Of a stretch of 64,000 nucleotides of DNA, positions 52,971-61,625 are shown piece by piece. Every line of letters begins with the position of its first letter. Within the stretch, counting starts at the first letter, position 1. The translations under genes were made by a program, and so were the position numbers. The notes below the pieces were generated by a model. The model saw nothing but the letters and a program-made list of their open reading frames with translations. It did no database searches and had not been told where the DNA came from. The DNA is from Gammaproteobacteria bacterium. Its GTDB lineage: Bacteria; Pseudomonadota; Gammaproteobacteria; Pseudomonadales; Azotimanducaceae. The stretch lies in the NCBI GenBank assembly GCA_002690865.1, contig NZGG01000024.1, positions 1 to 64,000 of the forward strand. Direction: 5' to 3'.

Positions 52971-53014
52971 TGTACAATTTACTGTTCATATATAATTGTT
53001 CAATAAGTTGTACA
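52971..53014 (+). promoter_or_regulatory. Toxin-antitoxin promoter/operator with two TGTACA sites
   Basis: Two TGTACA hexamers lie at 52971-52976 and 53009-53014, flanking a perfect TATAAT -10 element (52991-52996). TGTACA is the known core of the E. coli yefM-yoeB operator, where YefM binds two such sites. The spacing here (38 bp) and the -10 placed between them support autorepression. Confidence 0.8.
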
Positions 53015-53028
53015 ATAAGGAGATGGTC

Positions 53029-53283
53029 ATGCGGATAGTGACTTATTCAGAAGCTAGGAATAACCTTAAGAGCGTTCTTGATCAGGTAGTGGTAGATAAA
53101 GACTTTACAATCATATCGAGACGGGATGCTGATGATATGGCTGTTCTATCTTTAGAACAATTTAATAGCCTCATGGAAACAGTTAACCTACTTAAGGTTC
53201 CATTCAATGCAAACCACTTAAGTGAAGCCGTCAGCCAATACCAGACCCAGAACGTAGTAGAACGTAAGCTAATTGATGACTAA
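53029..53283 (+). CDS. yefM: Antitoxin of the Phd/YefM family
   Basis: The 84-residue protein has RIVTYSEARNNLKSVLDQVV and the Phd/YefM fold including ISRRDADDMAVLSLEQFNSL. Its N-terminal part binds DNA and the C-terminal disordered tail covers the YoeB active site. ATG 53029 follows AAGGAG with a 6-bp spacing, which decides it over upstream in-frame codons. It overlaps the toxin by 8 bp. It should autorepress the operon through TGTACA sites. Confidence 0.94.
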   Translation: MRIVTYSEARNNLKSVLDQVVVDKDFTIISRRDADDMAVLSLEQFNSLMETVNLLKVPFNANHLSEAVSQYQTQNVVERKLIDD

Positions 53284-53578
53284 TAGTCACAAATGGACGA
53301 GAATCGCCTGGTCTGACTATCAATATTGGTGCTATCGCAGCAGAAAAACTCAGATTTTTATCAATCAATTAATAAAGAATGCAGAAAAAACACCCACCAA
53401 CGGTCTAGGAAAACCAGAAAAACTGGTAGGCAGCCTGACTGGTTTATGGTCCCGCAAAATCGACACCACCAATCGTCTAATTTATGCCGTTAAGGAAGGG
53501 CATCTCATTATTATTTCCTGCAGGTACCACCTAAAACCGCGTGTTTCATTCATGTCACCACCACGCTTTAGAAACTAA
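53276..53578 (+). CDS. yoeB: Toxin of the YoeB family
   Basis: The 100-residue product has GLGKPEKLVGSLTGLWSRKI, NRLIYAV and ISCRYH, the YoeB pattern. Catalytic Glu48, Arg67 and His85 are present. The following Tyr (Tyr84 of E. coli YoeB, next to the His) is Leu86 here, and a C-terminal extension of about 14 residues follows, where E. coli YoeB stops. YoeB cleaves mRNA on ribosomes. With a changed residue and longer tail the activity may be altered. ATG 53276 overlaps the antitoxin by 8 bp. Confidence 0.92.
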   Translation: MTNSHKWTRIAWSDYQYWCYRSRKTQIFINQLIKNAEKTPTNGLGKPEKLVGSLTGLWSRKIDTTNRLIYAVKEGHLIIISCRYHLKPRVSFMSPPRFRN

Positions 53579-54641: not shown

Positions 54642-55763
54642 TTAGAAATAGTAACTTAAACCAAGGTAAGCCATATCTGGATTCAACCCATATTCGGAGT
54701 TATTTTTATCACCGTGGAAACGGTAGTAGGTTATGTTAGCGTCGACATTTGCTTTGACACTATAACTCGCCGCTAATGATAGAAAAGATGAATCATCACT
54801 TATATTGAATATACCTTGAAGAGCCAAGTTCCATAAAGGTCCTAATTGATAGTTAAAACTTGGTATTAAATAGTGCTCACCAAATAAAAATATGCCCGCC
54901 GGCAATCGGGGATTCTTATAATTTTCCTCCCGGTCCCTATGCTTATCTATATTCGCGCCATTGTAGTGATATTCTATCTGACCAAAAGCACGCTCAGAAA
55001 ATGCATAGTCAAAACCCGAAGATATCCTCGTGTATTCTCTCTGACCGTAAACCTTTGCAATTTCGAACCAAAACCCGAACTGCCCAATCGCTGTTTGCAA
55101 TCCAGCACCTAAAAGATTCTGCTCATCGAATCTTGAAATAGTGAATTGCAAATCCTTACCCCAGTAGTTATTACTCAACTGAAGGAATGCTGCTGATTCA
55201 TTCCGTGAGCTACCGAAAACAATACCTAAGTCAAATTCACCTAGCTCACCTAGGGGTGATTGATACCTAATCGCATCCACTCCCACACGATATTCTTGAT
55301 CAAAAACTATCGCGTCAAACGGAATAAAAATATCTGTAGGATTAATAACGCGCGCGCTCCCAAAACTAATTGCCTGCCTACCTAACGTCAAATCTCCTTT
55401 AGCCAAGCGGAGCTGCACATTTAATCGATCCAAGTTCTGTATAAAAAAGTGTTTTGGATTTACCTCACCAATAATCTGTGTAATATCTCCGAATCTATAA
55501 CGGCGCTCTGTTTGGATTAAATCTGATTGCTCGGCAGATAACTGTCTCGACATAAATATTGGATTAATCTGATAATGAAGTTCCCAGGCCAAGTTAGCCT
55601 CTTGATCATCCAACATAAAGCGTACATTGTTTTGCGACTGATATGTTCGAGGCTCTTCGTACAGGGCTTCCTGCGTCACCATGAACGTTTTTACATGACC
55701 AGAAAACTCGATTTCGCCAAAGCTATATGCACTGACCAAAAATAATAAAAATGCCTTCAACAT
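54642..55763 (-). CDS. Outer-membrane beta-barrel protein of an ABC exporter operon
   Basis: The 373-residue product has a signal peptide (MLKAFLLFLVSAYSFG) and alternating strands typical of a barrel, ending SYYF. The segment LGRQAISFGSARVINPTDIF resembles DUF1302/alginate-export-type barrels. It starts one base after the ATPase stop, which points to co-translation, and is the last gene of the five-gene operon that runs from 59652. It would provide the outer-membrane end of the system, whose cargo is unknown. Longer in-frame starts reach into the ATPase gene and are less likely. Confidence 0.82.
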   Translation of the reverse strand: MLKAFLLFLVSAYSFGEIEFSGHVKTFMVTQEALYEEPRTYQSQNNVRFMLDDQEANLAWELHYQINPIFMSRQLSAEQSDLIQTERRYRFGDITQIIGEVNPKHFFIQNLDRLNVQLRLAKGDLTLGRQAISFGSARVINPTDIFIPFDAIVFDQEYRVGVDAIRYQSPLGELGEFDLGIVFGSSRNESAAFLQLSNNYWGKDLQFTISRFDEQNLLGAGLQTAIGQFGFWFEIAKVYGQREYTRISSGFDYAFSERAFGQIEYHYNGANIDKHRDREENYKNPRLPAGIFLFGEHYLIPSFNYQLGPLWNLALQGIFNISDDSSFLSLAASYSVKANVDANITYYRFHGDKNNSEYGLNPDMAYLGLSYYF

Positions 55764-55764
55764 A

Positions 55765-56451
55765 TTATTTGATTTCGTCGCTTTCAATCTTCCCATCATG
55801 CAAGTGAATCAATCTTCTGGCACGGTCCATTATGTTTCTATCATGGGTAGAAAAGACAAAAGTCATATTCTGCTCTTCATTTAACCTCCGCATTATGTCT
55901 AATAGTGAGGCGCCCGTTGCTGAATCGAGATTCGCCGTTGGCTCATCTGCTAGAATTATGTCCGGGCCAGAAGCCATCGCCCGAGCAACCGCGACCCTTT
56001 GTTGTTGGCCTCCTGACAACTGCGCAGGCCGACGATCGCCAAGGCCCTCAAGCCCAACCAAGAACAACATCTCTCGAACTCTTTCATGACGCTTACTAGC
56101 GGGAATGTCTTGCAGCAACATAATATATTCAATGTTTTCCTCTGCTGACAAAACGGGTATCAAATTATAGGACTGAAATATAAACCCTATGTGATCTCGC
56201 CTAAAATCGGACAGCTCGCGGTTAGTCATCTCGGCAATATTCATACCCGAGAGCAATATTTTCCCTGAAGTCGGGTTATCCAGACCTCCAACTAACTGCA
56301 GGAATGTAGTCTTTCCTGAACCAGAAGGTCCGATCACAGCAGAAAATTCGCCTGGCTTTATTTGAATGGAAACATCATCAAGAGCTGCCGCTCTAAGATC
56401 ATCTTCCCCAAAAAAACGGCAGATGTTCTCTGTCTCTATTACGTATTCCAT
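55765..56451 (-). CDS. ABC transporter ATPase, LolD/MacB type
   Basis: The 228-residue ATPase has Walker [10 protein letters not shown] (41-49), the signature [14 protein letters not shown] (near 145), Walker [12 protein letters not shown] (near 166) and a H-loop STHD. It matches the LolD/MacB/FtsE branch that drives FtsX-type permeases without itself moving a substrate across the membrane. ATG 56451 has AGGAG overlapping the permease stop. It powers the two permeases upstream. Confidence 0.95.
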
Positions 56452-56459
56452 AGTAGCTC

Positions 56460-57677
56460 CTACAAGGACCTATTAAGTGCATTTACGGGCATGATACGAG
56501 CGGCAAAAATCGAAGGATAAATGGCAGAAACGAGTACGAGTAAAATCACGCAGAGAGGAAGTACAGTAAATTGTTCTAATGCAACCTTGGTATGAATGCC
56601 CTGCAGGACTACACCACTTACCTCATAGGTACCAAAATGAATGCCATTGATAGCAAACCAAGAATTCACAAAGTAACCCAAAACAGCACCTAAGACACAG
56701 CTAACAATGGCAAGCAGAAGCGACTCCAGCATCACCAAACTCATAAGCTCAGAGCCGCTAGTACCTATAGCTTTAGCAACGCCGAACTCATAGAGACGTT
56801 CGTAAATCGACATAAATAAGGAGTTAACCACTCCAAAAATTGCCAGTAGAAACAGTATCGATCCTATAATAATAGTCGCGTAGTTACTCATCCCAATGAG
56901 AGAGGCAATAGAAGGATTAAAGTCTAACCAACTCAATACCTCTAAGTCCTGTTGATTAATTTCCTGGTAAAAGGAATGTTCCGGATCCAATGCATACTCA
57001 GGATTCTTGAAACGTACTGCGATTTGATGGATCCCATTATTCAACCCAATTAGATGTTGAGCAATATTAATATTAATAAAACTCAAACTATTATCTAACT
57101 CCGGTAGCCCAAACTCAAAAATACCGGAAACTCGAAATAATTCCTGACTTATCTCGTCAGTATCCACCTCTACTGCTGTAATTACGATCCGATCACCGAG
57201 AGAAACCTCCAATGTATCTGACATTGGCTTACCAATGAGAATCTCTCTTTTTAGGCCAGATAAGTAAGCACCATCAATTATTGCGTTTTTAATTTTACTT
57301 ATATCTGTCTCCTGAGTCGCATCTACCCCATAGATTAAACCACTCGTAATATTGTAGGGAGAAGCCACCATGCCACCTAAAAGTACTCGTGGAGCATATG
57401 CCTCGACGTCATTATTTAGAAGGATTTGGGTAATAATAGACTCTGGCTTAGCAATAAATATCTTCTCATCCAACTCATCGAAGAAGCCCTTCTTATGTAT
57501 TTGAGCTTCACCAGATAGGGTCTGCGTGACGCTACTTACTAAATCCTCCTGCATCCCCTTGATCATACCGTCAGCGAGTATTAAAGAAACGAGAGTAAAA
57601 CTCAAAAGCATCACAGTCAGCAAGGTGCGGCGTTTGTTTCGAAACAAGTTTCGCCAAGCCAGTTTAAGAACTAACAT
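56460..57677 (-). CDS. FtsX/LolC-type ABC permease
   Basis: The 405-residue permease starts LKLAWRNLFRNKRRTLLTVM, an FtsX/MacB signature, followed by an N-terminal helix, a periplasmic core domain (about 45-270) and three C-terminal helices (near 270, 320 and 370). It is related to the permease upstream and probably forms a heterodimer with it. It starts 2 bp after that gene's stop. Proteins of this type extract lipoproteins or drive mechanotransmission from the inner membrane. Confidence 0.92.
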   Translation of the reverse strand: MLVLKLAWRNLFRNKRRTLLTVMLLSFTLVSLILADGMIKGMQEDLVSSVTQTLSGEAQIHKKGFFDELDEKIFIAKPESIITQILLNNDVEAYAPRVLLGGMVASPYNITSGLIYGVDATQETDISKIKNAIIDGAYLSGLKREILIGKPMSDTLEVSLGDRIVITAVEVDTDEISQELFRVSGIFEFGLPELDNSLSFININIAQHLIGLNNGIHQIAVRFKNPEYALDPEHSFYQEINQQDLEVLSWLDFNPSIASLIGMSNYATIIIGSILFLLAIFGVVNSLFMSIYERLYEFGVAKAIGTSGSELMSLVMLESLLLAIVSCVLGAVLGYFVNSWFAINGIHFGTYEVSGVVLQGIHTKVALEQFTVLPLCVILLVLVSAIYPSIFAARIMPVNALNRSL

Positions 57678-57679
57678 AT

Positions 57680-58909
57680 TTAATGGCTACTCATCGCCGA
57701 TCTAGGTGTGATAGTGCAGGCCCTCAGACCAGGTATAATTGTCACAAGAGATGAAAATATATAAATAATTAGTGCTGGGATGATCAGTACAATTGAGCTT
57801 ACTGTGCCTTTCAATTCATATAACTGCACACCACCCATATCAATCGGCTGCGGCAAAAGAAAACCTACTTGCGTTAAAAAAATCAGCAGTGGAATTGTGA
57901 GTATAAGGCCAAATAAAATACTAAGGGTTGTCAGCAGCATCGTTTCAATAAAAATCAGCTTAAAGATATCAACAGGACGACTACCGATAGCTCTTAAGAC
58001 ACCAAATTCTCGAGTTCTTTCTAGAACCGACATCAGTACCGTATTAAGAACACCAATACATACCAGAAAAATAATGATTCCCAGTATAAAGTAGTTCCCC
58101 TGTTGGTCAGCCCGCATTGATTTATAAAAACTAGATTCAACCACTTGCCACGGCGATACCGTCAGCCCATCTACAACATGATCAATATCTTCTTGGAAGG
58201 AATTAGCAATTGTCCTACTTTTGCTAACGTCATCAGTCAATAATGCATATTCGTGCACCTCATCATAAATGCTAAGAAATTCTTGGGCAGCACCTAAAGG
58301 AAGGTAAACAACCATATTGTCAAAAGATGACTTATTTCCAACTGTAGCCACCACCTCAAAAAGGTCATTAGCAGTCGAACCATCAGCACCTTGAGAGATC
58401 AATACAATCTCATCACCAACCCCAATATCCAAAGTGCGGGAAACCCCTGCACCAATCATGACCTTAAAAAAACCACTTTCGGTCATTTTTTGGTCAAAAT
58501 ATTTACCTGATTGTACTTTTTCCTTGAGTCTCGATGTTTTCGATTCGAGCAGAGGATTAACACCGATCACCGAAACAATAGATGTCTCGCTTCCTGAATA
58601 AGCAAGCGCAGGCGCAAAAACTCGAGGCGAAAAGCTTTTAATCCTATTTTCTGTACCAAGTAAGGCCTCAATCGAATCAAGACCCTCTATCGTTTTATAG
58701 ACCTTAGGCCGCTTATGATAATCTCCTGCATGAATTTGAATATGACCCGTATGATTACGAGTAAAAAAATCAATAGCATTGCCATAAGTACCCTCCGTCA
58801 ACGAAAATGAAAAAACACTGATGACAAAACCACCTGTCATACTCAGACCAGTGAGTAATGATCTGCGCTTTTGGCGCAGGATATTTCGAAATGCAAGTTT
58901 CAGTATCAT
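57680..58909 (-). CDS. FtsX/LolC-type ABC permease
   Basis: The 409-residue permease begins LKLAFRNILRQKRRSLLTGL, with the same architecture as the neighbouring permease: helix, periplasmic core domain, three C-terminal helices (near 280, 325 and 375). I placed the start at ATG 58909, which shares a base with the stop of the LolA-like gene (TGATG), better than TTG 58912. Its pairing with a paralogue recalls LolC/LolE. Confidence 0.92.
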   Translation of the reverse strand: MILKLAFRNILRQKRRSLLTGLSMTGGFVISVFSFSLTEGTYGNAIDFFTRNHTGHIQIHAGDYHKRPKVYKTIEGLDSIEALLGTENRIKSFSPRVFAPALAYSGSETSIVSVIGVNPLLESKTSRLKEKVQSGKYFDQKMTESGFFKVMIGAGVSRTLDIGVGDEIVLISQGADGSTANDLFEVVATVGNKSSFDNMVVYLPLGAAQEFLSIYDEVHEYALLTDDVSKSRTIANSFQEDIDHVVDGLTVSPWQVVESSFYKSMRADQQGNYFILGIIIFLVCIGVLNTVLMSVLERTREFGVLRAIGSRPVDIFKLIFIETMLLTTLSILFGLILTIPLLIFLTQVGFLLPQPIDMGGVQLYELKGTVSSIVLIIPALIIYIFSSLVTIIPGLRACTITPRSAMSSH

Positions 58910-59652
58910 CAAAAACGGCTCGTGAGATTTCTGCGAGTAAAGAGATTTCTTTTGACATCGGGGGGATCGAAGTGAAGGTTTGTATACTCTATAATTGTTT
59001 TATACCCGGGCCTATTAAATGGGATTACAGAAATCCTTGAAGGCAAAAGTATGCCTTCAAATTCCTCCCTCTTACCGAATTCCATTAGGCGTATCTTTCT
59101 ATCTTTTTCGTCATAAAAAATCTGCTCGCTAGGAAGCATTGCCTGACGATCAACAATGTAATCAATTTTTGCCCAGACCGTAACGGTTTCTGGTTTCGGA
59201 GACAAAGTAATACGATATTCAGACTCACTAGTCTCCAAAGATAAATCATAAGCATCAATCAGTTCTGTTTCCCGAAGAAGATCATCGTTAGTAACGTCAC
59301 TGCCCATCCAAGAGCCCATCATCATCGAGGGCGGAACTTTGATGACTTTGTTAATTTTCGGAAAGTAGTTCCACATCTCCCGCTCTCTTTTTAAAGTAGA
59401 GATCCCCGATTCTTTTTTTGGTTCAAGTATTCGGTATAAAGAATAATCTTGACCCAGTGATGCACTGCTCATCTTGAGGACGCGTTCATGTCGTGGCGTA
59501 ATTATTATCATCGTTAAGTTAGCACGAGAGGCGCTCCCTCTATAGAGGTACTCCATTTCTTCAATTATTCTTTGTGCCCGTGAAGATGAATCATCAGCGT
59601 ACAACATTGGGGAAAATAGTATAAGGAAGGATAACCAGTAGACCATCTGCAT
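58909..59652 (-). CDS. LolA-like outer-membrane lipoprotein-sorting protein
   Basis: The 247-residue product has a signal peptide (VYWLSFLILFSPMLYA) and the beta-sheet architecture of the LolA/LolB-like 'outer membrane lipoprotein-sorting' family (COG2834). It has TLKREREMWNYFPKINKVIK and MMMGSWMGSDVTNDDLL, motifs common in that family. It would act as a periplasmic carrier between the permeases and the outer membrane. A second ATG at 59646 has AGGA at a better spacing than the first at 59652, so the real start may be there. First gene of the five-gene operon. Confidence 0.85.
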   Translation of the reverse strand: MQMVYWLSFLILFSPMLYADDSSSRAQRIIEEMEYLYRGSASRANLTMIIITPRHERVLKMSSASLGQDYSLYRILEPKKESGISTLKREREMWNYFPKINKVIKVPPSMMMGSWMGSDVTNDDLLRETELIDAYDLSLETSESEYRITLSPKPETVTVWAKIDYIVDRQAMLPSEQIFYDEKDRKIRLMEFGKREEFEGILLPSRISVIPFNRPGYKTIIEYTNLHFDPPDVKRNLFTRRNLTSRF

Positions 59653-60758: not shown

Positions 60759-61421
60759 TTAGATTGAAATCCCGTAAGCTGCAACAAACGTTGTTTTAGG
60801 CTCGGTTCCAGTGAAATCAATCCATGTGCTCATAGTAAAGGAGATATTATCATTATAGGAGTAGCTGATATCGAGATGCGTAGCGTCCGTGTCATCTCCA
60901 AAATCGTGATCCCCAATGGCAAAAGTGAAGTCTCCTGCTGCTAGTGATGCGTTAATGTAACTGTAGTCTTCAGAAGCTGCATATCCGCCCGTATCACCGG
61001 CGATGTTATCATAGTAGCTGACGCTTACAGGACCGTACCCCAGAGTCAATATAACTTCTACAAAGTCTCCGATGTCTCCATCTGTCTCAGAGAAATCGCC
61101 AGTAGGGTAAAGATAGTTGGTGACATTAATATCAAAGCTTAGATCGCCAACCTCACCACCAAACCCTGCAAACAGATCAAATTCTGTACCTGCTGTTGTA
61201 TCACCTGAGGAAATCCAAAGGCCGGCATAAGCTCCGCCCTCGCTGAAAGAAATATCCGCTGATGCTGCGGGCGTGCCTGACCCCAAGTCGTAACCTCGCC
61301 AGAGGTATGAGGTAGCGACTGATGCAGACGCCGAAATTTCGGCATTAGCTGCTGGAATTATCGTGCCAGCACTTAGAAACAATGCAAATACTCCGGCAAG
61401 AATTTTTTTTGAGAAAGTCAT
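60759..61421 (-). CDS. TorF-like/Gcw_chp putative outer-membrane porin
   Basis: The 220-residue product has a signal peptide (SKKILAGVFALFLSAGTIIPAANA) and the family start ISASASVATSYLWRGYDLGSG, a hallmark of Gcw_chp/TorF putative porins. Alternating polar/hydrophobic strands and an acidic surface follow. Ligand unknown. ATG 61421 has GGAG six bases ahead and is better supported than the ATG at 61433. Confidence 0.9.
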   Translation of the reverse strand: MTFSKKILAGVFALFLSAGTIIPAANAEISASASVATSYLWRGYDLGSGTPAASADISFSEGGAYAGLWISSGDTTAGTEFDLFAGFGGEVGDLSFDINVTNYLYPTGDFSETDGDIGDFVEVILTLGYGPVSVSYYDNIAGDTGGYAASEDYSYINASLAAGDFTFAIGDHDFGDDTDATHLDISYSYNDNISFTMSTWIDFTGTEPKTTFVAAYGISI

Positions 61422-61625
61422 ATTTTGCTCCATGATGAACTTCGTGTATTTAACGCTGGCCCCCACACAAAGTGTAACCAGTCTACAGGTTGGAAAGCAT
61501 TATCCGGGCCACTTTTAGAATTTCTTTAAAAATCAGATGTTTATTTATTCAATTGTCTGCTATCAAACGTGGTTAAAGCAAAGAATGCACTTATGTAGTG
61601 CGTTTTGCACTAATTCGGGCCAAAA

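Follow-up and report, generated by a model that had tools for sequence, protein, structure and literature searches.

A conserved five-gene set with a Lol-like ABC transporter, a LolA-fold carrier and an AlgE/OprD-like outer-membrane barrel: a candidate trans-envelope export pathway

Apart from lipopolysaccharide and lipoproteins, little is known of how hydrophobic molecules arrive at the bacterial surface, and a locus in a gammaproteobacterium of the family Azotimanducaceae raises the question of whether a bacterium may hold a self-contained route for such a cargo. The stretch of DNA analysed here (the window) comprises 64,000 nucleotides (assembly GCA_002690865.1, contig NZGG01000024.1, positions 1 to 64,000) and carries on its minus strand, from 59652 to 54642, the genes for a LolA-like periplasmic carrier, two FtsX-type permeases, an ATPase and an outer-membrane barrel, in this order. 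We conclude that the set is probably a dedicated Lol-type trans-envelope export pathway with its own outer-membrane terminus.

A first-pass annotation of the sequence had taken the five genes for a single unit. All five open reading frames (ORFs) lie where it had placed them, the Pfam matches agree for the carrier, the permeases and the ATPase, and the spacing is as tight as claimed, with gaps of at most 8 bp. The carrier and permease 1 ORFs overlap by 4 bp with the listed TTG start, or by 1 bp if translation begins at the ATG that follows it; gaps of 2 bp and 8 bp follow between the two permeases and between permease 2 and the ATPase. The barrel ORF overlaps the ATPase ORF by 35 bp when read from its first ATG, or follows it after 1 bp when read from the ATG at 55763, which directly opens the signal peptide and is the likelier start. 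Promoter-like sites (14 versus 13.5 in shuffled sequences) and terminator-like sites (7 versus 4.0, standard deviation 2.3) are near the shuffle level, so that the support for co-transcription comes from spacing and conservation. On these grounds the view that the five genes form one unit is supported.

The conservation of the set is extensive. A relative of the barrel was found at an E value of 0.001 in 75 of 100 genomes of the same family, the genome studied here included. Among 40 such loci that were fetched, the carrier, at least two permeases, the ATPase and the barrel were recognised together in 29 by their ORFs, and a six-frame check added five in which parts were hidden by overlapping frames, giving 34 loci with the whole set; four of the remaining loci are cut by contig ends, and two (L072 and L076) are weighed below. 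The set is present even where the barrels share just 22–30% identity. A scan of titled genome records yielded 349 barrel relatives, and the five-gene order is identical in 65 of the best 80, which were kept. Of the other 15 loci, 12 start less than 200 bp away from the end of a contig; in L099 and L152 a permease ORF is split, and the 629 bp preceding permease 2 of L156 show no permease 1. The median gaps across the conserved sets are 2, −1, 8 and 0 bp. The gene-order survey that the annotation had suggested as a check thus came out in its favour, the order being conserved beyond what chance would give. The titles of the 80 records span several phyla, and complete sets occur in those titled Colwellia, Litorilituus, Thalassotalea, Desulfocicer vacuolatum, Poribacteria and Acidobacteria, the last two being metagenome-assembled genomes; Colwellia demingiae (L148) and Litorilituus lipolyticus (L145) are cultured marine bacteria that carry the set. 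Three distant relatives (L083, L084 and L086) have three consecutive FtsX-type permease ORFs, not two.

A class-wide search with the barrel alignment gave matches in 24 of 276 gammaproteobacterial genomes, at 26 places. Twenty of these loci were fetched, and 18 hold the full set of carrier, two permease domains, ATPase and barrel, the ATPase being split into two ORFs in L279; L277 is cut before the carrier. Five of the 20 have a second layout, in which the carrier is followed by the ATPase, a single permease ORF of 835 amino acids (aa) and the barrel. Both halves of the corresponding 834-aa ORF of L191, the one locus in which this was checked domain by domain, match permease profiles and thus represent fused permeases. 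The fact that the set survives such a rearrangement with carrier and barrel kept is an argument that both belong to it. Neighbouring genes gave no hint of the cargo, as no family recurs at a fixed position in more than 8 of the 80 loci.

The possibility that the set is the genome's only lolCDE is ruled out. The genome (2.42 Mb, 99% complete) holds a second set on contig 5, where an ATPase gene lies between two permease genes, and separate lolA and lolB genes, so that the check for a standard pathway elsewhere, also suggested by the first-pass annotation, found all of lolCDE, lolA and lolB outside the five-gene set. With 372 and 366 bits, the contig 5 permeases, LolC and LolE, are above the lolCE cut-off of 362, and the best model of the ATPase is LolD, at 306.5 bits slightly under the cut-off of 307.75. 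The single LolA gene (PF03548) lies on another contig between ftsK-like and serS-like genes, and the single LolB gene (PF03550) adjoins an ispE-like gene, these neighbours being named from their translations. Judged by sequence, the five-gene set is therefore additional to the organism's standard Lol pathway. Two further loci of this genome (G000) hold FtsX-type permease genes. On contig 37 (L013, 1502–5328), an SGNH-hydrolase-like gene is divergent from genes for an ATPase and an 841-aa FtsX permease, which we take, from their resemblance to tesA-ybbA-ybbP, to be a further Lol-related set of the ATP-binding cassette (ABC) type. Contig 28 (L012, 436–3032) encodes an FtsX permease with His-rich repeats, an ATPase and a small protein whose start resembles a signal peptide, together perhaps a metal-related transporter.

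The engine of the five-gene set has FtsX-like permease domains and an ABC ATPase, the features of a type VII ABC transporter. FtsX (PF02687) is found in both permeases (E values of 1.1e-13 and 6.4e-13), with MacB_PCD in addition in permease 1. Against the NCBIfam lolCE model, permeases 1 and 2 give E values of 2.1e-35 and 8.5e-38 (122 and 130 bits), under the cut-off of 362 bits. The nearest solved relative of permease 1 is LolE (7arh, E 1.5e-13), and those of permease 2 are LolF (9w37, E 1.7e-19) and LolC (7arh, E 3.7e-14). The ATPase matches ABC_tran (E 6.6e-34) and scores 216 bits with the DevA, 214 with the LolD and 205 with the MacB model, each under its own cut-off. In the LolC hook region, as counted on the alignment alone, the hairpin of both permeases is 4–5 residues shorter than in the genome's LolC, the genome's LolE being there also near LolC length.

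The carrier matches LolA_like (PF17131) with an E value of 2.3e-38 (132.1 bits, the family cut-off being 30) and no other Pfam family up to E 1, the LolA family PF03548 included; it is the one PF17131 match in its genome. Its AlphaFold2 model (predicted local distance difference test score, pLDDT, 90.8) has the LolA fold by structure comparison, the nearest solved folds being 4z48 (Z 26.0), LolA3 of Porphyromonas gingivalis (9tp6, Z 25.9, 20% identity) and 3bk5 (Z 25.1). PF17131-like structures reach Z 22.6–26.0 with the model, versus Z 11–13 for the best classical LolA and LolB entries; LolB of P. gingivalis gives Z 15.0. Six residues of a conserved carrier segment (M110, M111, W115, G117, S118 and D124) are invariant across 31 aligned sequences.

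Searches with the barrel sequence gave no match in Pfam (up to E 1), NCBIfam (up to E 0.1) or the PDB. PF03573 (OprD) and PF13372 (Alginate_exp) match neither the barrel nor anything else in the genome, and a plasmid search with the barrel gave no match; PF13505 (OMP_b-brl) matches 5 of 32 aligned barrel relatives, with a best E value of 0.0024. The AlphaFold2 model (pLDDT 85.9) has 18 strands, counted from its strand list. AlgE is the top fold in Foldseek (E 5e-12), and VIA-align places OprD/Occ channels, chitoporin and AlgE at Z 22–24 (OccAB4 24.0, AlgE 22.9); no Omp85 fold is among the matches listed by either program. With inward and outward positions assigned by hydrophobicity, not from coordinates, conservation across 32 sequences is 0.649 at lumen-facing and 0.495 at lipid-facing strand positions and 0.553 over all loops, and polar and charged residues are more frequent on the lumen side than outside. 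A highly conserved loop (residues 143–173) is probably folded into the lumen, as the fold class suggests.

Is this association of carrier and barrel confined to the window type? A survey of 299 Pseudomonadota genomes found PF17131 matches in at least 152, over the cut-off in at least 131. Sixty PF17131 loci were chosen by hand, favouring strong matches and different families, so that the following rates are not unbiased, and were classed by an automatic neighbour rule as RND-A (23; a resistance-nodulation-division-type protein directly before the carrier), RND-B (4; such a protein after the carrier), ABC-B (10; an ABC permease before the carrier), ABC-A (7; the window type) and other (16). In 46 of the 60, a barrel that belongs to the superfamily of the window barrel is encoded within 7 kb downstream of the carrier gene and in its orientation, namely in 22 of 23 RND-A, 7 of 7 ABC-A, 7 of 10 ABC-B, 10 of 16 other and 0 of 4 RND-B loci. 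The threshold for a barrel was a profile E value of at most 1e-3, and some matches are weak (30 bits in L192). The 46 leave aside L205 and L217, whose barrel and carrier ORFs overlap, and L224, with a same-strand barrel about 4.6 kb upstream. The profiles derive from 19 and 7 of the loci to which they were then applied; leaving out one at a time gave E values of at most 3.1e-18 for the 19 RND-linked barrels, the group that this check covered. With sets limited to downstream ORFs of 380–485 aa, hhalign matches the window barrel group at 98.5% over 252 columns to the RND-linked barrels and at 98.0% over 267 columns to those of the second ABC type; the controls gave 0.5% for OprD and 0.1% for the carrier and the permease. 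DUF1302, considered as a bridge between the barrel groups, was rejected, as it matched one RND-linked barrel, at E 0.036 and under the cut-off. Ten of 11 RND-type proteins tested match MMPL and that of L218 matches no family; the remaining RND-type calls are based on length and hydrophobic segments. In L225, L226, L227 and L220, the carrier gene stands directly before that of an RND-type protein of 905–916 aa and a barrel is absent; the protein of L225, the one of the four tested, has MMPL and a terminal cyclic-nucleotide-binding domain.

A midpoint-rooted tree of 85 carriers (L197 and L210 left out by length, L191 relabelled ABC-A) places all 35 ABC-A carriers, 27 from the barrel-based searches and 8 from the PF17131 sample, in one clade with support 100/99. 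All 27 RND-labelled carriers fall into a second group of 35 rows together with 8 'other' (99/98), and all 10 ABC-B carriers into a third of 15 rows together with 5 'other' (100/96), the labels being intermixed with 'other' inside these two groups. By this phylogeny, carriers seem to have been tied to their own engine over long times, the barrel superfamily being common to the engines. Both layouts of the window type occur together in two genomes (G476 and G590), and G295 holds an RND-linked and a window-type set (L189 and L203); such coexistence in one genome suggests different cargoes rather than redundancy. As a tentative generalisation, which we regard as possible but short of probable, PF17131 proteins would mostly be soluble shuttles of a widespread and so far unrecognised class of export systems for different amphiphiles, each with a dedicated barrel of one superfamily and driven by ABC engines in two layouts or by RND/MMPL engines, and would mostly not be lipoprotein sorters. 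The claim of a dedicated system is supported in part and has to be widened: it is not confined to this genome, and ABC and RND/MMPL engines both occur.

Taking these results together, a working scheme can be drawn for the five-gene set. By family membership, two copies of the ATPase would assemble with the two permeases into a type VII ABC transporter, which would take an amphiphilic substrate out of the inner membrane at its outer leaflet. Judged by its LolA fold and its signal peptide, the carrier would be loaded with the substrate and ferry it across the periplasm; the regular linkage of the genes suggests that the substrate would then be handed over to the AlgE/OprD-like barrel, which would replace LolB and insert or expose it at the cell surface. 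Bulk lipoproteins would be left to the separate lolABCDE. The cargo is most likely a lipid whose head group is polar, for example a glycolipid or lipopeptide, since its acyl part suits the groove of the carrier and its polar part the polar lumen. The first-pass annotation had proposed a dedicated outer-membrane route for lipids, lipoproteins or another hydrophobic cargo; the route is still the simplest reading, and the modelled lumen, polar and charged, speaks against passage of a purely apolar cargo through the barrel.

The nearest competitor, which we regard as unlikely, is a second Lol pathway that serves only some lipoproteins, for example those exposed at the surface, which the barrel would flip or insert. 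The solved structures nearest to the permeases in sequence, LolE and LolF/LolC, and the LolA fold of the carrier are in keeping with this, as is a predicted gene cluster of Borrelia that is proposed to serve lipoproteins or another non-polar ligand (PMC13078400). However, the engine proteins of the set score far below the LolC/E and LolD cut-offs, which the genome's LolC and LolE pass and its LolD just misses, and the carrier belongs to PF17131, not PF03548. Moreover, LolA3 of P. gingivalis (9TP6), structurally a member of the carrier's family, is reported to bind that organism's LolB only weakly (PMC13103446), which fits a carrier family not using LolB. The MacB_PCD domain and the score of the ATPase on the MacB model, though below the cut-off, would suit a MacB-type efflux pump for harmful hydrophobic compounds with the barrel as exit duct; yet no MacA-type adaptor or TolC-type duct family was matched in Pfam among the five products, the nearest folds of the barrel are AlgE and OprD, and a continuous duct would presumably need no soluble carrier. 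We consider such a pump improbable.

Uptake of a hydrophobic nutrient, which would enter by the barrel and be ferried inward by the carrier, we hold to be just as improbable as efflux. Thalassolituus oleivorans responds to alkane with an MMPL protein that carries a LolA-like domain and with a neighbouring porin (PMC6304351), which equally fits export of a product. SDR-like and thiolase-like genes, named from their translations, neighbour the five-gene set in 11 and 7 of the 80 loci, respectively, a hint weakened by the fact that these neighbours are not conserved. The known roles of type VII ABC transporters, export and mechanotransmission, also count against uptake. Least probable of all, in our estimate, is that the barrel is an ordinary porin that came into the operon by chance. 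Its porin-like fold and polar lumen would allow this, as would the barrel without the rest of the set in L072; against it, the barrel is kept through the rearrangement in five of the 20 class-wide loci and in records titled as several phyla, and the same superfamily stands beside RND-driven carriers.

Several observations weigh against an export pathway with its own outer-membrane terminus, the explanation that we prefer. The direction of transport, the order of handover, the cargo and the contact of carrier and barrel are all read from family, fold and linkage, and a polar lumen also fits an ordinary porin. L072 encodes a closely related barrel (41% identity) but, within 16 kb, no other member of the set, no carrier was found in L076, and in L273 about 5.2 kb separate the barrel from the ATPase, in a stretch that ends inside permease 2. 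There is no conserved sixth gene, the commonest neighbour family occurring in 11 of 80 loci. All four RND-B and 6 of the 16 other loci have carriers without a barrel in the 7 kb downstream; not every PF17131 carrier, then, needs such a barrel. Finally, Alginate_exp reaches 45.7% with the window barrel group (E 2e-4) over 33 columns only, so that a distant tie to a porin family is possible.

Table 1. Positions of the five genes and of conserved segments in the window, with the loci of the second layout
Feature	Position	Strand	Remarks
LolA-like periplasmic carrier gene, 247 aa	58909..59652	-	PF17131
FtsX-type permease 1 gene, 410 aa	57680..58912	-	TTG start listed
FtsX-type permease 2 gene, 405 aa	56460..57677	-	FtsX domain
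ATPase gene, 228 aa, LolD/MacB/DevA type	55765..56451	-	ABC_tran
Outer-membrane barrel gene	54642..55799	-	385 aa from first ATG; 373 aa from 55763
Conserved carrier segment, residues 106-126 (VPPSMMMGSWMGSD region)	59275..59337	-	from alignment
Highly conserved barrel stretch, residues 143-173, long inter-strand loop	55281..55373	-	mean conservation 0.737, 32 sequences
Second-layout loci	L280, L281, L282, L283, L285; L191		834-835 aa permease ORF, ATPase ahead

Two other features of the window lie near the operon (Table 1). Just past its upstream neighbour, positions 60759–61466 encode a 235-aa protein that matches Gcw_chp (PF09694, E 2e-15). At 52996–53578, two small overlapping ORFs presumably represent a toxin-antitoxin pair of the YefM/YoeB type; ORFs of similar size (95 and 94 aa) stand in the same relative place in a related genome (L047).

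The claim that the system is undescribed held in the literature searched, which left most subscription papers and all bioRxiv preprints outside its scope: we found the five-gene set neither described nor assigned a cargo. As a kind, Lol-like ABC transporters that work with a LolA-fold carrier are already known. We found no published account of a regular, dedicated AlgE/OprD-like barrel, nor of a carrier family and a barrel superfamily common to ABC and RND engines. A conserved, self-contained set with a barrel as its outer-membrane end offers a testable candidate route to the cell surface, and the occurrence of carrier and barrel with both engine types would give a functional context to PF17131, which is annotated by name as 'outer membrane lipoprotein-sorting protein', and to a group of barrels that we could not assign to any Pfam entry.

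Comparison with the published genes named here, none of which is presented by its authors as the five-gene set, is by description, not homology. The Borrelia genes BBJ23-29 are predicted to encode a type VII ABC transporter, a LolA-like protein and an Omp85 barrel, with a proposed non-polar ligand (PMC13078400). They share with our set the ABC transporter, the LolA-like protein and an outer-membrane barrel, both systems being predictions, but differ in the Omp85 type of the barrel, a homodimeric permease, two tetratricopeptide repeat proteins and their location on spirochaete plasmids. In T. oleivorans (TOL_3187/3188), the MMPL protein with a LolA-like domain is up 42-fold on C28 alkane, and the porin encoded beside it was seen only during growth on that alkane (PMC6304351); operons for MMPL and 'outer membrane lipoprotein-sorting' proteins of P. 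gingivalis (PG1175-81) and Prevotella intermedia rise under low iron (PMC10434189). These loci resemble the set in their LolA-like or 'lipoprotein-sorting' protein and, in T. oleivorans, also in the porin, but their engine is of the RND and not the ABC type, and the papers report expression rather than mechanism. AlgE and the OprD/Occ channels share the 18-strand fold and polar lumen of the barrel, which has no Pfam match to either and in profile comparison reaches 0.5% with OprD and 45.7%, over just 33 columns, with Alginate_exp. LolA2/LolB2 of Flavobacterium johnsoniae sit in the flexirubin pigment locus, for which the authors consider a possible specialised route (PMC11885536). With the Lol pathway itself, the set shares a type VII ABC transporter of two FtsX-like permeases and an ATPase and a periplasmic carrier of LolA fold; it differs in that its carrier belongs to another Pfam family, it includes no LolB, a barrel is its regular member, and a separate standard Lol pathway is present in the same genome.

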